DNA from: a virus
Direction: 5' to 3' (one strand)
IMG/VR virus record: IMGVR_UViG_3300025671_000114
Coordinates: 1-46,614 of that record
DNA length: 46,614 nucleotides
Shown: positions 11,408 through 16,511 of the stretch, piece by piece
Layout of the letters: each line of letters begins with the position of its first letter
How positions within the stretch are numbered: the stretch's first letter is position 1
Translations under genes and position numbers: made by a program
Notes under the pieces: model-generated
Seen by the model: the letters and a program-made list of their open reading frames with translations, nothing else
What the model was told of the DNA's origin: nothing
The model's database searches: none

Positions 11408-11638
11408 CTACCAATCAGGATATTCCCACCTGTCAAACACTCTATTTGTCATTCTACTTACAATAATTCTTTTCTTTGTGCAGTCTTTGCACTCATAAGA
11501 ATATGATGAAGGATATGATCCTCTACCCTTTCTAGTCAAATAAAAATCCTCAATAAGATTTTTTGTCTCTCCACAAACCCTACAAGTTCTATCAACAAAC
11601 AGTAAATGTTCTAGATCAAACTTATCGCCAATGTCCAT
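11408..11638 (-). CDS. Small two-CxxC zinc protein, endonuclease VII-like zinc-binding segment
   Basis: This 76-residue protein begins MDIGDKFDLEHLLFVDRTCR at the ATG whose A is shared with the gp17 stop (TGATG). A start 15 bases further upstream is less likely because of this junction. Two CxxC knuckles (CRVC and CKDC, about 30 residues apart) flank FYLTRKGRGSYPSSYSYE. This is the zinc-binding arrangement often seen in the N-terminal part of phage recombination endonuclease VII/HNH proteins. The catalytic portion is absent and the protein ends soon after the second pair. It may be a stand-alone adaptor tied to the terminase. The function is not established. Confidence 0.75.
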   Translation of the reverse strand: MDIGDKFDLEHLLFVDRTCRVCGETKNLIEDFYLTRKGRGSYPSSYSYECKDCTKKRIIVSRMTNRVFDRWEYPDW

Positions 11639-13302
11639 CAATAATACTCCCACATAAAATTCATGTCTCCATATGTGGAGTTGATATCATCAAGATCGGT
11701 CTTTCTCCAAAGAGTTCCATCATCACCTTGAATTACATCATCTTCTAGACCATCACTAATAAATCCAAATGGAGCCATATCCTGTTCAATTTGATCTCTC
11801 TGGTCTTCATACAGTCTCTTACGAACATCTTGGTCGGTGAGTTCCTTAAAGTAGTCTTGGGCGACCAACCACGCATAGATGACGAGACACATTGCAAGGT
11901 CATCATTACATCCATCCTCAGCTTCAAATGAGTTTCTCTTGTGGATAAATGTAGTGAGTTCTGATATAATATCATAGTCTTTGAAGAGAACCTTGTCCGC
12001 CTCAATCATCGTCTTTAGGTTGGAACACCCTACCGCCTTTACAGCTTTGGACATCTTGAGACCCAACTGAGTTTTCTTTCCAGAGAAACCTTGACCGACG
12101 ATCTGTCCCGCACGTCCTCTCATCGAACACTGAAGAAGATTAGGATACTCAAGATCGTAGTTTAAAATAGCTGCAACCTGATCACCAATATCATTAACCT
12201 CACATAAGACCCATGCATTATTATATGACTTTACCGTTTCATAAATGATCGATGGGAACAACATTGGTTTAATTTCGTTGTTCTTGTACTTTGCAACTAC
12301 TCTATGTGGATACTCAGTTATATCCACAATAACGAAAGCTGAGTAGTCATTACCACCACCTCTGGCCACGTCAACTGTACAAACGTAGTCGTGGTTGTCA
12401 ATTGGTTTTTCATATACATCCAGACCATTACCAGATTGAATGGCCCTGTCATAGACCATGGCTCTCAACTTGGCTGGATTGATGAGAGTATCAACTGATC
12501 CAAGAAACTCACATTCAAACTCAACCTTGAACTGGTTTTCTGAAGTGTTCTTAATAGTTTGTTCTCGCCACTTCTCATCGCGGCCTGGAACTTCACTCCA
12601 GTGAACTGAAGTTGGAACGTATTCGTTTTGACCCCTCTCAGCATCATGCCACATTCTGTAAAAATGGTTCATGCCGTGAGGCGTCGAAACCATAATTACT
12701 TTTGTGCTTTTACCAGAAGTAATAGTAGGATAAACAGATGCAAAGAAGGAGTCAGCGATGTGATTAGGGACGAACGCGAACTCATCGAGGAAGAGGATAT
12801 TGAACGACATGCCTCGGACAGCACTCGCAGATGTAGAAGCTGCCAATACCTTACTGCCATTCTCCAACTCCATTGATCCTTTGTTCCATGCAATGATACC
12901 CTGTTGCATCCACTTTGGCAGGTTCTCATATGCAAGTTGTAACCTACTGAGGAGTTCCCTTGCAGTAGATGCTTTGTTGGCAAGAATACCAACGTTTACA
13001 CTGTCATTGAATACAATGAAGTGAAGTAAGTATGATACCGACGTTGTTGACTTACCCGTCTGTCGGGGCATCATACAGATATTAAATCTATTTTTATGAA
13101 AACGACTGATTAACTTCTCTTGAAACTTATACGGTTCAAAAGGAACAAGACCTTCATCCAGAGAAACGATACGAATATAATTTCGCGCAAAGTAAACAGG
13201 ATCTTCTTTACACTTAATAAATTCTTCGATCTGGTCTTTGGTGAACTCAATGGCGGTGTTGGCCTTCTTGAGGTTCGGGTTACCAAGATATACTTCACTC
13301 AT
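11638..13302 (-). CDS. gp17: Terminase large subunit gp17
   Basis: This 554-residue protein is the packaging motor and headful nuclease. The ATPase half shows Walker A PRQTGKST (79-86), Walker B ILFLDEFAF (169-177) and the coupling motif MVSTPHG (204-210). The C-terminal RNase H-like nuclease begins at TVDVARGGGNDYSAFVIVD with Asp311 as the first catalytic acid. Further acidic residues appear in LCEVNDIGDQV and in the C-terminal EDGCNDDLAM. T4 gp17 has 610 residues. The 5' end overlaps the last micro-gene of the upstream chain by eight bases, and the 3' end shares one base with the zinc-protein gene. Its partner gp16 lies about 9.3 kb upstream. Confidence 0.96.
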   Translation of the reverse strand: MSEVYLGNPNLKKANTAIEFTKDQIEEFIKCKEDPVYFARNYIRIVSLDEGLVPFEPYKFQEKLISRFHKNRFNICMMPRQTGKSTTSVSYLLHFIVFNDSVNVGILANKASTARELLSRLQLAYENLPKWMQQGIIAWNKGSMELENGSKVLAASTSASAVRGMSFNILFLDEFAFVPNHIADSFFASVYPTITSGKSTKVIMVSTPHGMNHFYRMWHDAERGQNEYVPTSVHWSEVPGRDEKWREQTIKNTSENQFKVEFECEFLGSVDTLINPAKLRAMVYDRAIQSGNGLDVYEKPIDNHDYVCTVDVARGGGNDYSAFVIVDITEYPHRVVAKYKNNEIKPMLFPSIIYETVKSYNNAWVLCEVNDIGDQVAAILNYDLEYPNLLQCSMRGRAGQIVGQGFSGKKTQLGLKMSKAVKAVGCSNLKTMIEADKVLFKDYDIISELTTFIHKRNSFEAEDGCNDDLAMCLVIYAWLVAQDYFKELTDQDVRKRLYEDQRDQIEQDMAPFGFISDGLEDDVIQGDDGTLWRKTDLDDINSTYGDMNFMWEYY

Positions 13303-13435
13303 CTAACTCATGATACGCTAGCTTAAGTATGTAGTAAATACACCACGCAGTAAAAGCCAATCCGCAACACAGAAGTATGATTACACTCCAAGTGGGATCA
13401 TTCAGGTTCTGGTGGGGTCTTAGTATGAGTTCCAT
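13295..13435 (-). CDS. 46-residue single-pass membrane protein upstream of gp17
   Basis: The frame beginning at the ATG at 13435 encodes MELILRPHQNLNDPTWSVII followed by a strongly hydrophobic segment (LLCCGLAFTAWCIYYILKL, about 21-39) and a short charged tail. It overlaps the preceding micro-gene by 38 bases in another frame and gp17 by eight. A longer version from a TTG at 13486 is possible, but it would lie almost wholly within the preceding gene. Length, one membrane segment and dense overlap suggest a real but unrecognised phage miniprotein. I see no strong ribosome binding site, so it is probably translated by coupling. Confidence 0.6.
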   Translation of the reverse strand: MELILRPHQNLNDPTWSVIILLCCGLAFTAWCIYYILKLAYHELDE

Positions 13436-13544
13436 CGAAGGGTGCCCAGTGTTCCCACTTATACTTATGCACCGCCCAAATTCCAAGTATAGGAACTACA
13501 ATCAAAAAGTAACTGAGTATACCTAAGGTGAATGGATTTTCCAT
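13398..13544 (-). CDS. 48-residue single-pass membrane protein
   Basis: This short frame encodes MENPFTLGILSYFLIVVPIL, then GIWAVHKYKWEHWAPFDGTH and a proline-rich end. The N-terminal 8-28 is a transmembrane segment; the remainder is polar with several His and Trp residues. Its ATG shares one base with the stop of the 73-residue gene upstream (TGATG), a classical termination-reinitiation junction. It overlaps the next gene by 38 bases. I do not recognise a family. Confidence 0.65.
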   Translation of the reverse strand: MENPFTLGILSYFLIVVPILGIWAVHKYKWEHWAPFDGTHTKTPPEPE

Positions 13545-13765
13545 CACCCACCGTGCAACATGGCCCATTTTTCTCTAAAATACCTATCTGTGTGATTTAA
13601 ACAATCGAGTGGTGCAACTTCATCAGTTTTAGCCCAATCATAACAAAAGTCAACCATGTCTGTTGTGACATGACTGACTCCATATATTCTTGAAAAAGAA
13701 GACCAAGCAAAATGAAACTTTTGCCTAGTGTGCGGTTCCATTGCCCTTATAGTGTTCGGATTCAT
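13544..13765 (-). CDS. 73-residue hypothetical protein
   Basis: This is a soluble small protein, MNPNTIRAMEPHTRQKFHFA..., rich in aromatic residues, His and Cys (FCYDWAKTDEVAPLDCLNHT). It is mostly helical in pattern and I do not recognise it. Two starts are possible: ATG at 13765 (overlap of 41 bases with the preceding frame) or ATG at 13741, which is preceded by AAGGGC and leaves a 17-base overlap. The stop leads into the next ATG as TGATG, which supports translation of both. Confidence 0.65.
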   Translation of the reverse strand: MNPNTIRAMEPHTRQKFHFAWSSFSRIYGVSHVTTDMVDFCYDWAKTDEVAPLDCLNHTDRYFREKWAMLHGG

Positions 13766-13856
13766 AGTAGTGCCCCTTCTTTGAACCGAAGTAAATTGTA
13801 GTTAATACAAAGGGTATGGCAACGATTGCAAGTGCCTTTCCTAACAAATGTTCCAT
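13725..13856 (-). CDS. 43-residue single-pass membrane protein
   Basis: The frame reads MEHLLGKALAIVAIPFVLTT, then IYFGSKKGHYYESEH and a polar end. Residues 4-24 form one hydrophobic helix and the C-terminal half is polar and basic/aromatic. It overlaps the upstream 41-residue frame by 16 bases and the downstream gene by up to 41. No family is recognised. Support comes from an ATG start, a single plausible helix and its place in a chain in which every neighbour overlaps. Confidence 0.55.
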   Translation of the reverse strand: MEHLLGKALAIVAIPFVLTTIYFGSKKGHYYESEHYKGNGTAH

Positions 13857-13966
13857 GATTTGATATTGGGTACGTGTGATAAAACGGACATTAATACGAA
13901 CCATTTAGATGCCCTAGAGTTAACAACATATTCTTTATCGTTAACAGTTACTATGTATTTTTTCAT
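13841..13966 (-). CDS. 41-residue hypothetical protein
   Basis: The frame reads MKKYIVTVNDKEYVVNSRAS, then KWFVLMSVLSHVPNIKSWNI and a final Cys. The first half looks like a beta hairpin and the second like an amphipathic or short hydrophobic helix. Its ATG overlaps the stop of the preceding gene as ATGA, the same junction used by real gene pairs elsewhere in this window. That is the main reason to accept it. No function can be given. Confidence 0.55.
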   Translation of the reverse strand: MKKYIVTVNDKEYVVNSRASKWFVLMSVLSHVPNIKSWNIC

Positions 13967-14109
13967 TGATTTGATGGATCAATATTTAAGTCGTTCAGGT
14001 AATCGATCCACCATTGGGGGTCTTTGTTCCTTCTCCACTGTGGAACCTCCATTCCCTTTTCAAAGTAATACTTCCACAGAGCCTCATCGATAATCTGTTT
14101 TACTTCCAT
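13963..14109 (-). CDS. 48-residue acidic/aromatic hypothetical protein
   Basis: From the ATG at 14109 the protein is MEVKQIIDEALWKYYFEKGM, then EVPQWRRNKDPQWWIDYLND and a short tail. It is helical, soluble and rich in Trp. A start at 14217 is open, but it would sit fully inside the upstream membrane protein. The 14109 start has GAGGA about eight bases upstream and leaves a 26-base overlap. The stop forms ATGA with the next ATG. No family is recognised. Confidence 0.65.
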   Translation of the reverse strand: MEVKQIIDEALWKYYFEKGMEVPQWRRNKDPQWWIDYLNDLNIDPSNQ

Positions 14110-14293
14110 ACTCCTCGTCCTCTTCATCAACGTCTCCATATGGGTTTTCCACATAGGGTCCATGTGGTCGTTTGGCATCATCTCTGACATAGGTTCTTTC
14201 AGCTTCGATAGTTGCAATCCATACTGAGAGTTTCATTACTATGTAGATGATACCCAGTGGTAAAAAGCACGCAATGAGGATGAGTGGTTTCAT
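14084..14293 (-). CDS. 69-residue membrane protein with acidic tail
   Basis: MKPLILIACFLPLGIIYIVM and the following residues form one hydrophobic segment (3-27). A polar domain follows, with a cluster of acidic residues near the end (DVDEEDEEYGSKTDYR). The N-terminal membrane anchor with a charged cytoplasmic or periplasmic tail resembles many unassigned phage membrane miniproteins. Its ATG overlaps the stop of the upstream 59-residue gene as ATGA. The DNA for the acidic tail supplies the GAGGA before the next gene. Confidence 0.7.
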   Translation of the reverse strand: MKPLILIACFLPLGIIYIVMKLSVWIATIEAERTYVRDDAKRPHGPYVENPYGDVDEEDEEYGSKTDYR

Positions 14294-14469
14294 TTGTCCT
14301 TTAGCAACTCTTCTATTCTTTTACGCATGTCTTCAGACTTCTTCTGTTCTCGTTCACAGTGTCTGTAACCATGATGGCCTCTGATAATCATCGTGCCCTG
14401 ATAGAACATCGTGATCCCAAAAACAAATAATAAAATACAACCAATCAGTTCAATGTGATTTTGAGCCAT
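14290..14469 (-). CDS. 59-residue single-pass membrane protein
   Basis: This frame reads MAQNHIELIGCILLFVFGIT, MFYQGTMIIRGHHGYRHCER and then a highly charged helix ending KRIEELLKDK. Residues 8-24 are a membrane segment and 38-59 could form a coiled or amphipathic helix. It overlaps the upstream gene by 25 bases and joins the next one through ATGA. The codon pattern and two coupled junctions support it as a gene. The function is unknown. Confidence 0.65.
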   Translation of the reverse strand: MAQNHIELIGCILLFVFGITMFYQGTMIIRGHHGYRHCEREQKKSEDMRKRIEELLKDK

Positions 14470-14636
14470 GGCAGTAGGGGTGGAATAGCCCCGACGAGTC
14501 TTAGAAGTCCCTCAGCAAATAAAGCAAGAACCACCCAACCGACGCACATACTAATGATAGAAGCATTACGGTTGTGGCGTCGTATTGCTGCATCGATCAT
14601 CTCCTGAACTTCTTCTTTAGTTACTGGGGTGGTCAT
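14445..14636 (-). CDS. 63-residue membrane protein
   Basis: An N-terminal helical region (MTTPVTKEEVQEMIDAAIRR) is followed by a long hydrophobic stretch, 25-58, broken by PP. This could be one long or two short membrane helices. The gene overlaps the upstream zinc protein by 20 bases and the downstream gene by 25. It is holin-like in size and layout, but that is not enough to assign a role. Confidence 0.7.
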   Translation of the reverse strand: MTTPVTKEEVQEMIDAAIRRHNRNASIISMCVGWVVLALFAEGLLRLVGAIPPLLPWLKITLN

Positions 14637-14868
14637 TTTCCAATTCAGTAAGTCGTTTCGCCCATGTTACTCCACCTTCTTGTCCCATGCATGGGTTTAT
14701 GCAGGTTTCGTCACCATGATTATTACAAACCAGACCTGCGAGATCCAGCTCGTTTCCTTTTTTGCCCGTGCCCGTCCAGTAGTGCTGACCATTAATCCAT
14801 AAAGCACCACACTTCGGGCATTCCCTTCTCTCCATAGAGAGATCGGACATTTCTTTATTGTTATCCAT
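14617..14868 (-). CDS. 83-residue zinc-binding-type protein
   Basis: The protein contains CPKCGALWINGQHYW near residues 17-31, then a Cys in LAGLVCNNHGD and two further Cys in CINPCMG. The paired Cys/His set is consistent with one structural zinc ion. The pattern CPKCGAxWINGQHYW recurs in small conserved cyanophage proteins, but its function is unknown to me. The ATG at 14868 overlaps the upstream stop by eight bases. Inner Met residues at 7 and 12 are alternative starts. It is the only clearly non-membrane, metal-type member of the chain. Confidence 0.75.
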   Translation of the reverse strand: MDNNKEMSDLSMERRECPKCGALWINGQHYWTGTGKKGNELDLAGLVCNNHGDETCINPCMGQEGGVTWAKRLTELENDHPSN

Positions 14869-15070
14869 TAAGGTCTGAGAGTTTAGATGGTATTCTCAAT
14901 TGTTTTTGCAACCTGCGTTTCATAAAATACATTTGGATCTTAATCCACAAATACTTGATTTGTAGTTCAAGATAAACAAATACACGCATAGTTCCTTCAA
15001 TACCCGCATACCAAATCATCCCGATGAGGATGAACATACACAAGTACAAACTAATTAAGGATGTTCCCAT
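14861..15070 (-). CDS. 69-residue membrane protein, first gene of the micro-gene chain
   Basis: Residues 3-26 (SLISLYLCMFILIGMIWYAG) form a membrane segment. A second amphipathic, aromatic stretch follows, and then a very basic C-terminus (MKRRLQKQLRIPSKLSDLNG). The basic tail suggests that it faces the cytoplasm. It opens the chain of overlapping genes leading to gp17. The 85-base gap upstream holds an inverted repeat. No family is recognised. Confidence 0.7.
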   Translation of the reverse strand: MGTSLISLYLCMFILIGMIWYAGIEGTMRVFVYLELQIKYLWIKIQMYFMKRRLQKQLRIPSKLSDLNG

Positions 15071-15155: not shown

Positions 15156-16511
15156 TTAACGTGTTTCTCTCCACTGAATAGTATTAAAGACATCTGTTGT
15201 TGTATTAGTGTCTAGGTTCTGAACAATAACAACAAAAATATTACTATCATTCGAATCAATATTTTGTGCAATATAAGATCTTCTAGCTGTGGTTGGATTA
15301 AATGAAACTTGAGCAGATGCTTGTTTACCTGATGGATTATTAGCAGCAATCAAAGTTGCCTGTCTCAAATCTCCACCAGTTGTTGTGAAGTTAGTCCCTA
15401 CAGTGACATTATACTCAACTGCTGAATCATCATCAGCACTTACCCAACTTCCACCAGTGATATTAGTATTGCTTGGAACTCTCCAAACTTCAATTCTACA
15501 ATTCGTAGAATCACTTAAACACTCAACCCCAGTTACTCTTACAGTTGTTCTGTTTGGGATTCCTTTGAATGTATCCTTACATCGAATAGCCATGACACAT
15601 TGTCTGCCAGTTGCACCACCAGAAGCAGAGAATGATATTGGACCATTAAAGGCACCAAACTCCACACCAGTCTCAACATATCCACCTTCACTCAATACAG
15701 TGGCACAAATTTGTTCCATTGATGTGATACCAACAGCAGTGTCGGTATTTGCAACTTCGCAACGAATTGGAAGTGAAGGTAAACTCCAATAGACATGTTC
15801 TAGATTATTTGCATGTTGAAACTCATGGAAATAGAAGTTACTTCCGTCTAGAACTAATCCACATCTAAGTCTTCCAACTCCCAACCACTGAAAGTCTGTG
15901 ATGAACAGCTGAGTTTTTGTCCAGTCAACGTCTACTCCAGACTGACCAGTTCCATCTAAAGGATCCAAACTCCAGTTGGATTGATTGACAACGGTGTCAA
16001 CTGCGGTTCCTGTGGTATAAGATCTTCTTACAATAGAAACAGTACCATCTCCAGCCTGTTGGAGAAATACACCATTTCTATCATCAAAATATCCAACCTT
16101 TTTAGTTGTGTTTGTTCTATAATCGATGAAGTTGAAACTTGCCATGGCAAATTGAGATTTACCTGGCATATAATGGTGATACATTCTTGATTGGTGTATC
16201 ACTTGTGAGGTTGAACCAACACCAACTATAAGACCAATCGATGCTGTGTTTGCGTTTGTAACGGTTGTTGATCCAGTACCAATTTTCTTTGTTAATAATT
16301 CAACTTCTTCGCCATAGATGTGAGTATAGTCTGCAAGTGTGTATGGCTCAGATACACGCATTCTACCAAACGCATCATATCCTCCACCACCTACTCCAGT
16401 AGCAACTCCACAGTTTCCAATGTTGCCGTATCTGTCGGCACACATGAAAACTTCATGTAGAGTTCTCTCTTGGTTGAGATAGTCCTGTGTATTCTTATTC
16501 CACTGAGCCAT
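15156..16511 (-). CDS. Virion structural protein, probably tail/fibre-associated
   Basis: This 451-residue protein carries a conserved phage segment, YDAFGRMRVSEPYTLADYTH (45-64), found in many phage structural proteins that begin an adhesin-like or beta-rich domain. No membrane segment or signal peptide is seen. The rest is rich in Thr, Asn, Val and Gly with repeated strand patterns and VGVGSTS-type turns like those in the tail genes. The C-terminal part (about 330-451) resembles a beta-sandwich. It lies four bases after the small 101-residue gene. I assign it to the virion by composition and context and cannot name its place. Confidence 0.75.
   Translation of the reverse strand: MAQWNKNTQDYLNQERTLHEVFMCADRYGNIGNCGVATGVGGGGYDAFGRMRVSEPYTLADYTHIYGEEVELLTKKIGTGSTTVTNANTASIGLIVGVGSTSQVIHQSRMYHHYMPGKSQFAMASFNFIDYRTNTTKKVGYFDDRNGVFLQQAGDGTVSIVRRSYTTGTAVDTVVNQSNWSLDPLDGTGQSGVDVDWTKTQLFITDFQWLGVGRLRCGLVLDGSNFYFHEFQHANNLEHVYWSLPSLPIRCEVANTDTAVGITSMEQICATVLSEGGYVETGVEFGAFNGPISFSASGGATGRQCVMAIRCKDTFKGIPNRTTVRVTGVECLSDSTNCRIEVWRVPSNTNITGGSWVSADDDSAVEYNVTVGTNFTTTGGDLRQATLIAANNPSGKQASAQVSFNPTTARRSYIAQNIDSNDSNIFVVIVQNLDTNTTTDVFNTIQWRETR

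Follow-up and report, generated by a model that had tools for sequence, protein, structure and literature searches.

Overlapping micro-genes beside a cyanophage terminase gene include a putative viral NdhP and probably form an enzyme-free auxiliary-metabolic island

The stretch of viral DNA analysed here (IMG/VR record IMGVR_UViG_3300025671_000114, positions 1 to 46,614; hereafter the window, 46,614 nucleotides (nt) in full) carries eleven micro-genes, g1 to g11, that run on the minus strand in an unbroken chain of overlaps into gp17, the gene for the large terminase. We found that one of them, g8, corresponds by homology to NdhP, a subunit of a photosynthetic complex, and that in related phages the same families are shuffled among genes of photosynthesis and the pentose phosphate pathway. 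We consider it fairly probable that the chain is an enzyme-free variant of a hypervariable auxiliary-metabolic island, whose co-translated small genes would act on host photosynthetic electron transport.

The eleven open reading frames (ORFs) were read directly in the window at the positions given by the initial annotation, from 15070 down to 13295, as were gp17 and the zinc-type ORF that follows it. The listed overlaps also read as described, with 8, 20, 25, 4, 26, 4, 16, 41, 1 and 38 nt by these coordinates from g1 to g11, then 8 nt between g11 and gp17 and 1 nt between gp17 and the zinc-type ORF. When chains were counted as ATG-initiated ORFs of at least 40 residues with consecutive overlaps of 1–45 nt, the longest chain in the window had 11 members and the maximum in 2,000 dinucleotide shuffles was 3, which bears out the dense coupling first noted. 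Tiles elsewhere in the window mostly gave 0–3, the higher values coming from tiles that contain the chain. The products have 41–83 residues, and seven (g1, g3, g4, g5, g8, g10 and g11) contain a hydrophobic segment, defined as a 19-residue stretch with a mean Kyte–Doolittle value of at least 1.9, in agreement with the seven membrane products originally reported. Each of the eleven matches a PHROG family 'of unknown function' (E values from 2e-7 for g7 to 3e-39); the micro-proteins tested against Pfam gave no match above its curated cut-offs. Matches by tblastn in phage records numbered 151 for g5, 267 for g3 and 319 for g8, and the records are named as marine Synechococcus/Prochlorococcus phages, cyanophages and, in a few cases, marine viruses. 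For the ten families with enough sequences, codon alignments gave a median ratio of nonsynonymous to synonymous substitution rates (dN/dS) of 0.12–0.36, indicating purifying selection, and the frames were intact, so the broken frames that would have spoken against the chain did not appear in relatives. The weakest-supported frame is g7, which has ten members in the collected loci and is missing from many close relatives. The chain is a real, conserved and unusually compact arrangement, made up as follows.

g1, 14861..15070, minus strand: 69 residues, single transmembrane (TM) segment, phrog_1181, dN/dS 0.21; g2 is next in 49/49 close neighbours
g2, 14617..14868, minus strand: 83 residues, soluble, Cys-rich (CPKCG...C...C), phrog_484, dN/dS 0.18
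g3, 14445..14636, minus strand: 63 residues, single TM segment, phrog_1096
g4, 14290..14469, minus strand: 59 residues, single TM segment, phrog_1953
g5, 14084..14293, minus strand: 69 residues, single TM segment and acidic C terminus, phrog_2832
g6, 13963..14109, minus strand: 48 residues, soluble, phrog_2075; behind g5 in 88/88
g7, 13841..13966, minus strand: 41 residues, phrog_12768 (E = 2e-7); optional chain member, ahead of g8 in 10/10
g8, 13725..13856, minus strand: 43 residues, putative viral NdhP, single TM segment, phrog_2173, dN/dS 0.12
g9, 13544..13765, minus strand: 73 residues, soluble three-helix protein, phrog_593; starts inside g8
g10, 13398..13568 (probable start, moved from 13544), minus strand: 56 residues, single TM segment, phrog_1184
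g11, 13295..13435, minus strand: 46 residues, single TM segment, phrog_814; 8-nt overlap with gp17
gp17, 11638..13302, minus strand: large terminase; neighbour, outside the proposed functional set
Virion structural protein, 15156..16511, minus strand: phrog_1645; upstream border of the micro-gene island

A profile built from 24 members of the g8 family matched NdhP of the Thermosynechococcus NDH-1L complex (6khi_P, E = 1.3e-10; 6hum_P, E = 4e-9) and reached the plant counterparts NDF6/PnsB4 at E = 0.005 and 0.03. The same profile found exactly one gene per genome in 10/10 Synechococcus/Cyanobium genomes (E from 1e-14 to 1e-17). Nine of these ten host genes were extracted, and all end in the motif YYD[TS]D-Y-GNGTAH; the g8 family has the conserved C terminus YY[ED][ST][ED]xYxGxGTAH, and viral and host sequences are nearly identical at GYYDTDDYDGNGTAH. 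The homology spans the TM and C-terminal regions, and the size and topology of g8 (43 residues, with a maximal 19-residue Kyte–Doolittle mean of 1.93 at residues 4–22) fit those of NdhP, which has about 40–45 residues and one TM helix. Similar to cyanobacterial NdhP (6khi_P; PMC4131877) and plant NDF6/PnsB4, g8 is small, with one TM helix; it also shares with NdhP the conserved C-terminal YDTDxYxGNGTAH, and a cytoplasmic tail is expected. Unlike host NdhP, the viral copies overlap the next gene, often carry 1–3 extra residues ahead of the YY motif or extend further at the C terminus, and form their own group, separated from host NdhP in a 43-column tree with support of 99/84. On the strength of this homology, we assign g8 as NdhP. 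PHROG, Pfam and NCBIfam give g8 no name, and a search of NCBIfam and Pfam with g8 members returned nothing meaningful, only PsaX at E = 0.014. Most GenBank records leave g8 unnamed; the S-SCSM2R record names it. A cyanophage ndhP had already been suggested from metagenomes (PMC3877843; PMC10452541). A viral NdhP as such is therefore not new; as far as the literature consulted shows, this analysis adds its identity with a widespread unnamed family and its position in the operon.

Gene neighbourhoods were compared in 243 loci from gp17, g5 and g10 scans of IMG/VR and from annotated isolates, which were deduplicated to 194; gene order was mapped in 117 deduplicated loci, each with at least two micro-genes. 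The order in the window is gp15, gp16, structural genes, the chain, gp17 and gp18, and its close relatives carry the complete chain between a structural gene and gp17. Across the 117 loci, the same micro-genes are heavily permuted, either interleaved with petE, PTOX, gnd and zwf or distant from gp17. The chain families are split by PTOX and gnd in S-CAM9 and by PTOX, gnd and zwf in S-8S56, and micro-genes enclose petE in S-RIM8 and petE with ferredoxin in S-H35. In S-TIM5, they lie far from gp17, beside the DNA polymerase gene, in the order petE, talC, cp12, PTOX, g3, g4, gnd, g5, g6, g8 and zwf; the members found in P-SSM2, ACG-2014f, S-SKS1 and S-SCSM2R lie tens of kilobases from gp17. Contig L118 carries hli, ferredoxin, g1 to g10 in the order of the window, psbA and psbD, the last two being 92% and 88% identical to the reference. 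Among 30 g8 copies flanked on each side by 2.5 kb of context or more, 20 had petE, PTOX, gnd or zwf nearby and three had gp17 without any of these, in a sample that its gp17-based collection biases towards gp17. In many isolates, g8 lies between gnd and zwf or overlaps them. In the record of Synechococcus phage Sf-CH5, with the order psbA, psbD, petE, PTOX, gnd, [ndhP], zwf and talC, an unannotated ndhP-like gene (L335:5001-5126) fills the gnd/zwf joint.

While gene order reshuffles, particular joints keep their length. The overlap is 25 or 22 nt in 37/40 g3/g4 pairs, 4 nt in 21/22 g10/g5 pairs (from loci with reshuffled order) and mostly 11 or 8 nt between g1 and g2; for g5/g6, it is 26 nt in 59 pairs, the rest being mostly longer and reflecting automatic start choices. 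The g8/g9 overlap had been left at 41 or 17 nt; comparison with relatives, in which 42/49 g8/g9 pairs overlap by 41 nt, places the start of g9 at MNPNT, so the 41-nt version holds and the 17-nt version does not. The single-base TGATG junction between g9 and g10 is legible in the window but is probably internal to g10. In many relatives where g9 lies upstream, the MGH start is conserved and the internal Met is missing, often replaced by Leu; g10 therefore most likely begins at 13568 (MGHVARWVMEN...) rather than at 13544, and the overlap becomes 25 nt instead of 1.

At several joints, the codons show that the start signal of a gene lies within the end of the gene before it. The ATG of g4 arises from a CCA codon for the Pro of the g3 PW motif; this codon is used in 32/32 cases where g4 follows and in 4/15 where it does not, counts that shared ancestry inflates. 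Likewise, the g8 Tyr codon that gives the g9 ATG is TAT in 37/43 cases with g9 next versus 1/6 with zwf next, and the codons of the g5 C terminus, DEEDEEYG, double as Shine–Dalgarno sequence and ATG of g6. Codon alignments showed reduced synonymous change at the doubly coding ends of g4, g5, g6 and g8, and no reduction at those of g2, g3 and g10. A scan of the chain gave strong Shine–Dalgarno sequences for g5, g6 and g9 and none for g2, g4, g7 and g8, a pattern compatible with, but not proof of, translational coupling. A promoter scan showed no excess at the chain, and TATAAATA, which was looked for, was not found near it. Inside g9, a 15-pair stem-loop followed by a T-rich stretch (13646-13681, minus strand) is terminator-like by pattern only. 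Directly behind the g10 stop codon, many relatives (L089, L119, L178, L205, L216 and L219) have a TATAAT-like box that suggests a promoter of the next gene; the window, in which g10 and g11 overlap, has no such box.

The chain region corresponds to the stretch upstream of gp17 that is known to be hypervariable in marine T4-like cyanophages. It occupies the same place, between the g15/g16 end and gp17–gp18, as the hyperplastic region that cyanomyoviruses have between g15 and g18 (Millard 2009, reviewed in PMC2984593), and its gene content also varies among relatives; 4–14 inserted genes are described there, small hypothetical proteins with PTOX, gnd and zwf in relatives. Unlike that region, the window has no enzyme, only 11 micro-genes in one continuous overlap chain. 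The second counterpart is the mobile petE/PTOX/zwf/gnd cassette flanked by endonucleases (Sullivan 2010, PMC3037559), with which the same micro-gene families are interleaved at variable genome locations, and an endonuclease gene adjoins g11 in many relatives; the window differs in lacking petE, PTOX, gnd and zwf between gp16 and gp18. The description of the cassette in PMC3037559 names enzymes, one hypothetical protein and an endonuclease, and not the micro-genes, fixed overlaps or NdhP. The zinc-type gene behind gp17 in the window (11408-11638, minus strand) matches phrog_4723, labelled endonuclease VII, and many relatives share its one-base overlap with gp17.

Host NdhP is confined to NDH-1L, in the distal NdhD1/NdhF1 unit with its C terminus cytoplasmic (PMC4131877; structure, PMC7021789), and is required for NDH-1L to form (PMC4131877). 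The g8 product would be a thylakoid membrane protein whose C terminus faces the cytoplasm, and we infer that it docks in host NDH-1L at the NdhD1/NdhF1 end. At that site it could preserve the assembled complex while synthesis by the host falls off, or bias it, and so maintain or bias electron flow from ferredoxin to plastoquinone, with its ATP supply, during infection. The genes that accompany g8 elsewhere serve the same circuit, with ferredoxin as electron donor to NDH-1L, plastocyanin, PTOX as plastoquinol sink, and gnd with zwf as a source of NADPH. The overlaps would keep neighbours translationally coupled, such that modules reshuffle as joined pairs, and gp17 adjacency may simply mark where the island happens to sit.

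For the ten products other than g8, the link to this circuit is suggested by neighbourhood alone. Profiles of g1, g2, g3, g4, g5, g9, g10 and g11 gave chance-level matches only against PDB. The AlphaFold2 model of g9 has three helices and a predicted local distance difference test (pLDDT) score of 91, and a fold search with it returned cyanophage relatives only and no PDB match; the g2 model (pLDDT 56) was not good enough for a fold search. In Cyanobium genome G006 (L334, C6:28844-28972), a 72-residue host ORF resembles g4 (E = 1e-4; ...AYQGRMVCLEQRGY...MRERLQELL), the sole hint here of a host relative for the phage-only families. Homologues of g3, membrane proteins of 60–110 residues, are labelled 'gp7' or 'baseplate wedge initiator' in several records (P-SSM2, L087:7076-7405; Syn19; P-HM1; P-HM2; S-SM2), which looks like propagated misannotation.

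Several observations weigh against an auxiliary-metabolic role for the whole chain. The window, 46.6 kb of the genome, has no petE, PTOX, gnd or zwf around the chain from gp16 to gp18, the region lies among late structural genes, and no expression data were found for the chain genes. Seven families (g1 to g5, g10 and g11) lack a credible PDB relative, and apart from one weak g4-like match their profiles found nothing in the 10 host genomes, an empty result that would carry little weight in the absence of a positive control, although the same genomes did answer to the g8 profile. By these searches, g8 alone has a host homologue; proteins of 41–83 residues carry little signal for deep homology.

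One possible alternative, which we regard as a good deal less probable, is that a recombination hotspot between core genes has gathered unrelated small genes, with NdhP as one real auxiliary metabolic gene and the rest individually minor and of unrelated roles. The strongly permuted order, the endonucleases at the flanks of the cassette, which are believed to drive the shuffling (PMC3037559), and the coming and going of g7 all fit this view. However, pairs stay joined at fixed overlaps through the shuffling (g1–g2 in 49/49, g5–g6 in 88/88, g8–g9 at 41 nt), the whole set recurs beside photosynthesis genes in L118, and every family tested shows purifying selection. A more ambitious scheme, which we think rather unlikely, makes the micro-genes a coordinated kit of small membrane subunits and assembly factors for remodelling host NDH-1L, or the contact of this complex with photosystem I, during infection; viral NdhP would replace the host subunit, its overlapping partner g9 would bind its cytoplasmic tail, phage-only TM proteins would join the complex, and fixed overlaps would set stoichiometry.

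The initial annotation had also raised a superinfection or host takeover set. Seven small single-TM proteins in a late structural region could be lysis or superinfection-exclusion miniproteins (holin/spanin/Imm-like) at the host inner membrane, but we judge this improbable: no PHROG or Pfam match to a lysis or immunity family was obtained (the lysis genes of these phages were not searched for), one product is by homology a photosynthetic subunit, and the set is linked to electron-transport and pentose-phosphate genes. Nothing indicated superinfection exclusion, and host takeover holds only if it is taken to mean an auxiliary-metabolism set. The proposed packaging or membrane accessory module, in which small membrane proteins tether or regulate packaging by the gp17 terminase, draws on the adjacency to gp17 in relatives of the window and the 8-nt g11/gp17 overlap in 9/15 pairs; it is very unlikely and largely refuted by relocation, because most chain families occur without gp17 close by, many gp17 loci lack most micro-genes, L118 has g1 to g10 beside psbA/psbD, and g8 corresponds to NdhP.

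Assigning g8 to NdhP gives a family of 'unknown function' with matches in 319 phage records what appears to be a name and a testable place in a host complex that is already well characterised. The assignment suggests that NDH-1-dependent cyclic electron flow is a further point at which cyanophages act, besides photosystem II, PTOX, plastocyanin and the pentose phosphate pathway. Joints of fixed overlap that survive reshuffling offer a testable case of how phages may rearrange operons without losing translation.

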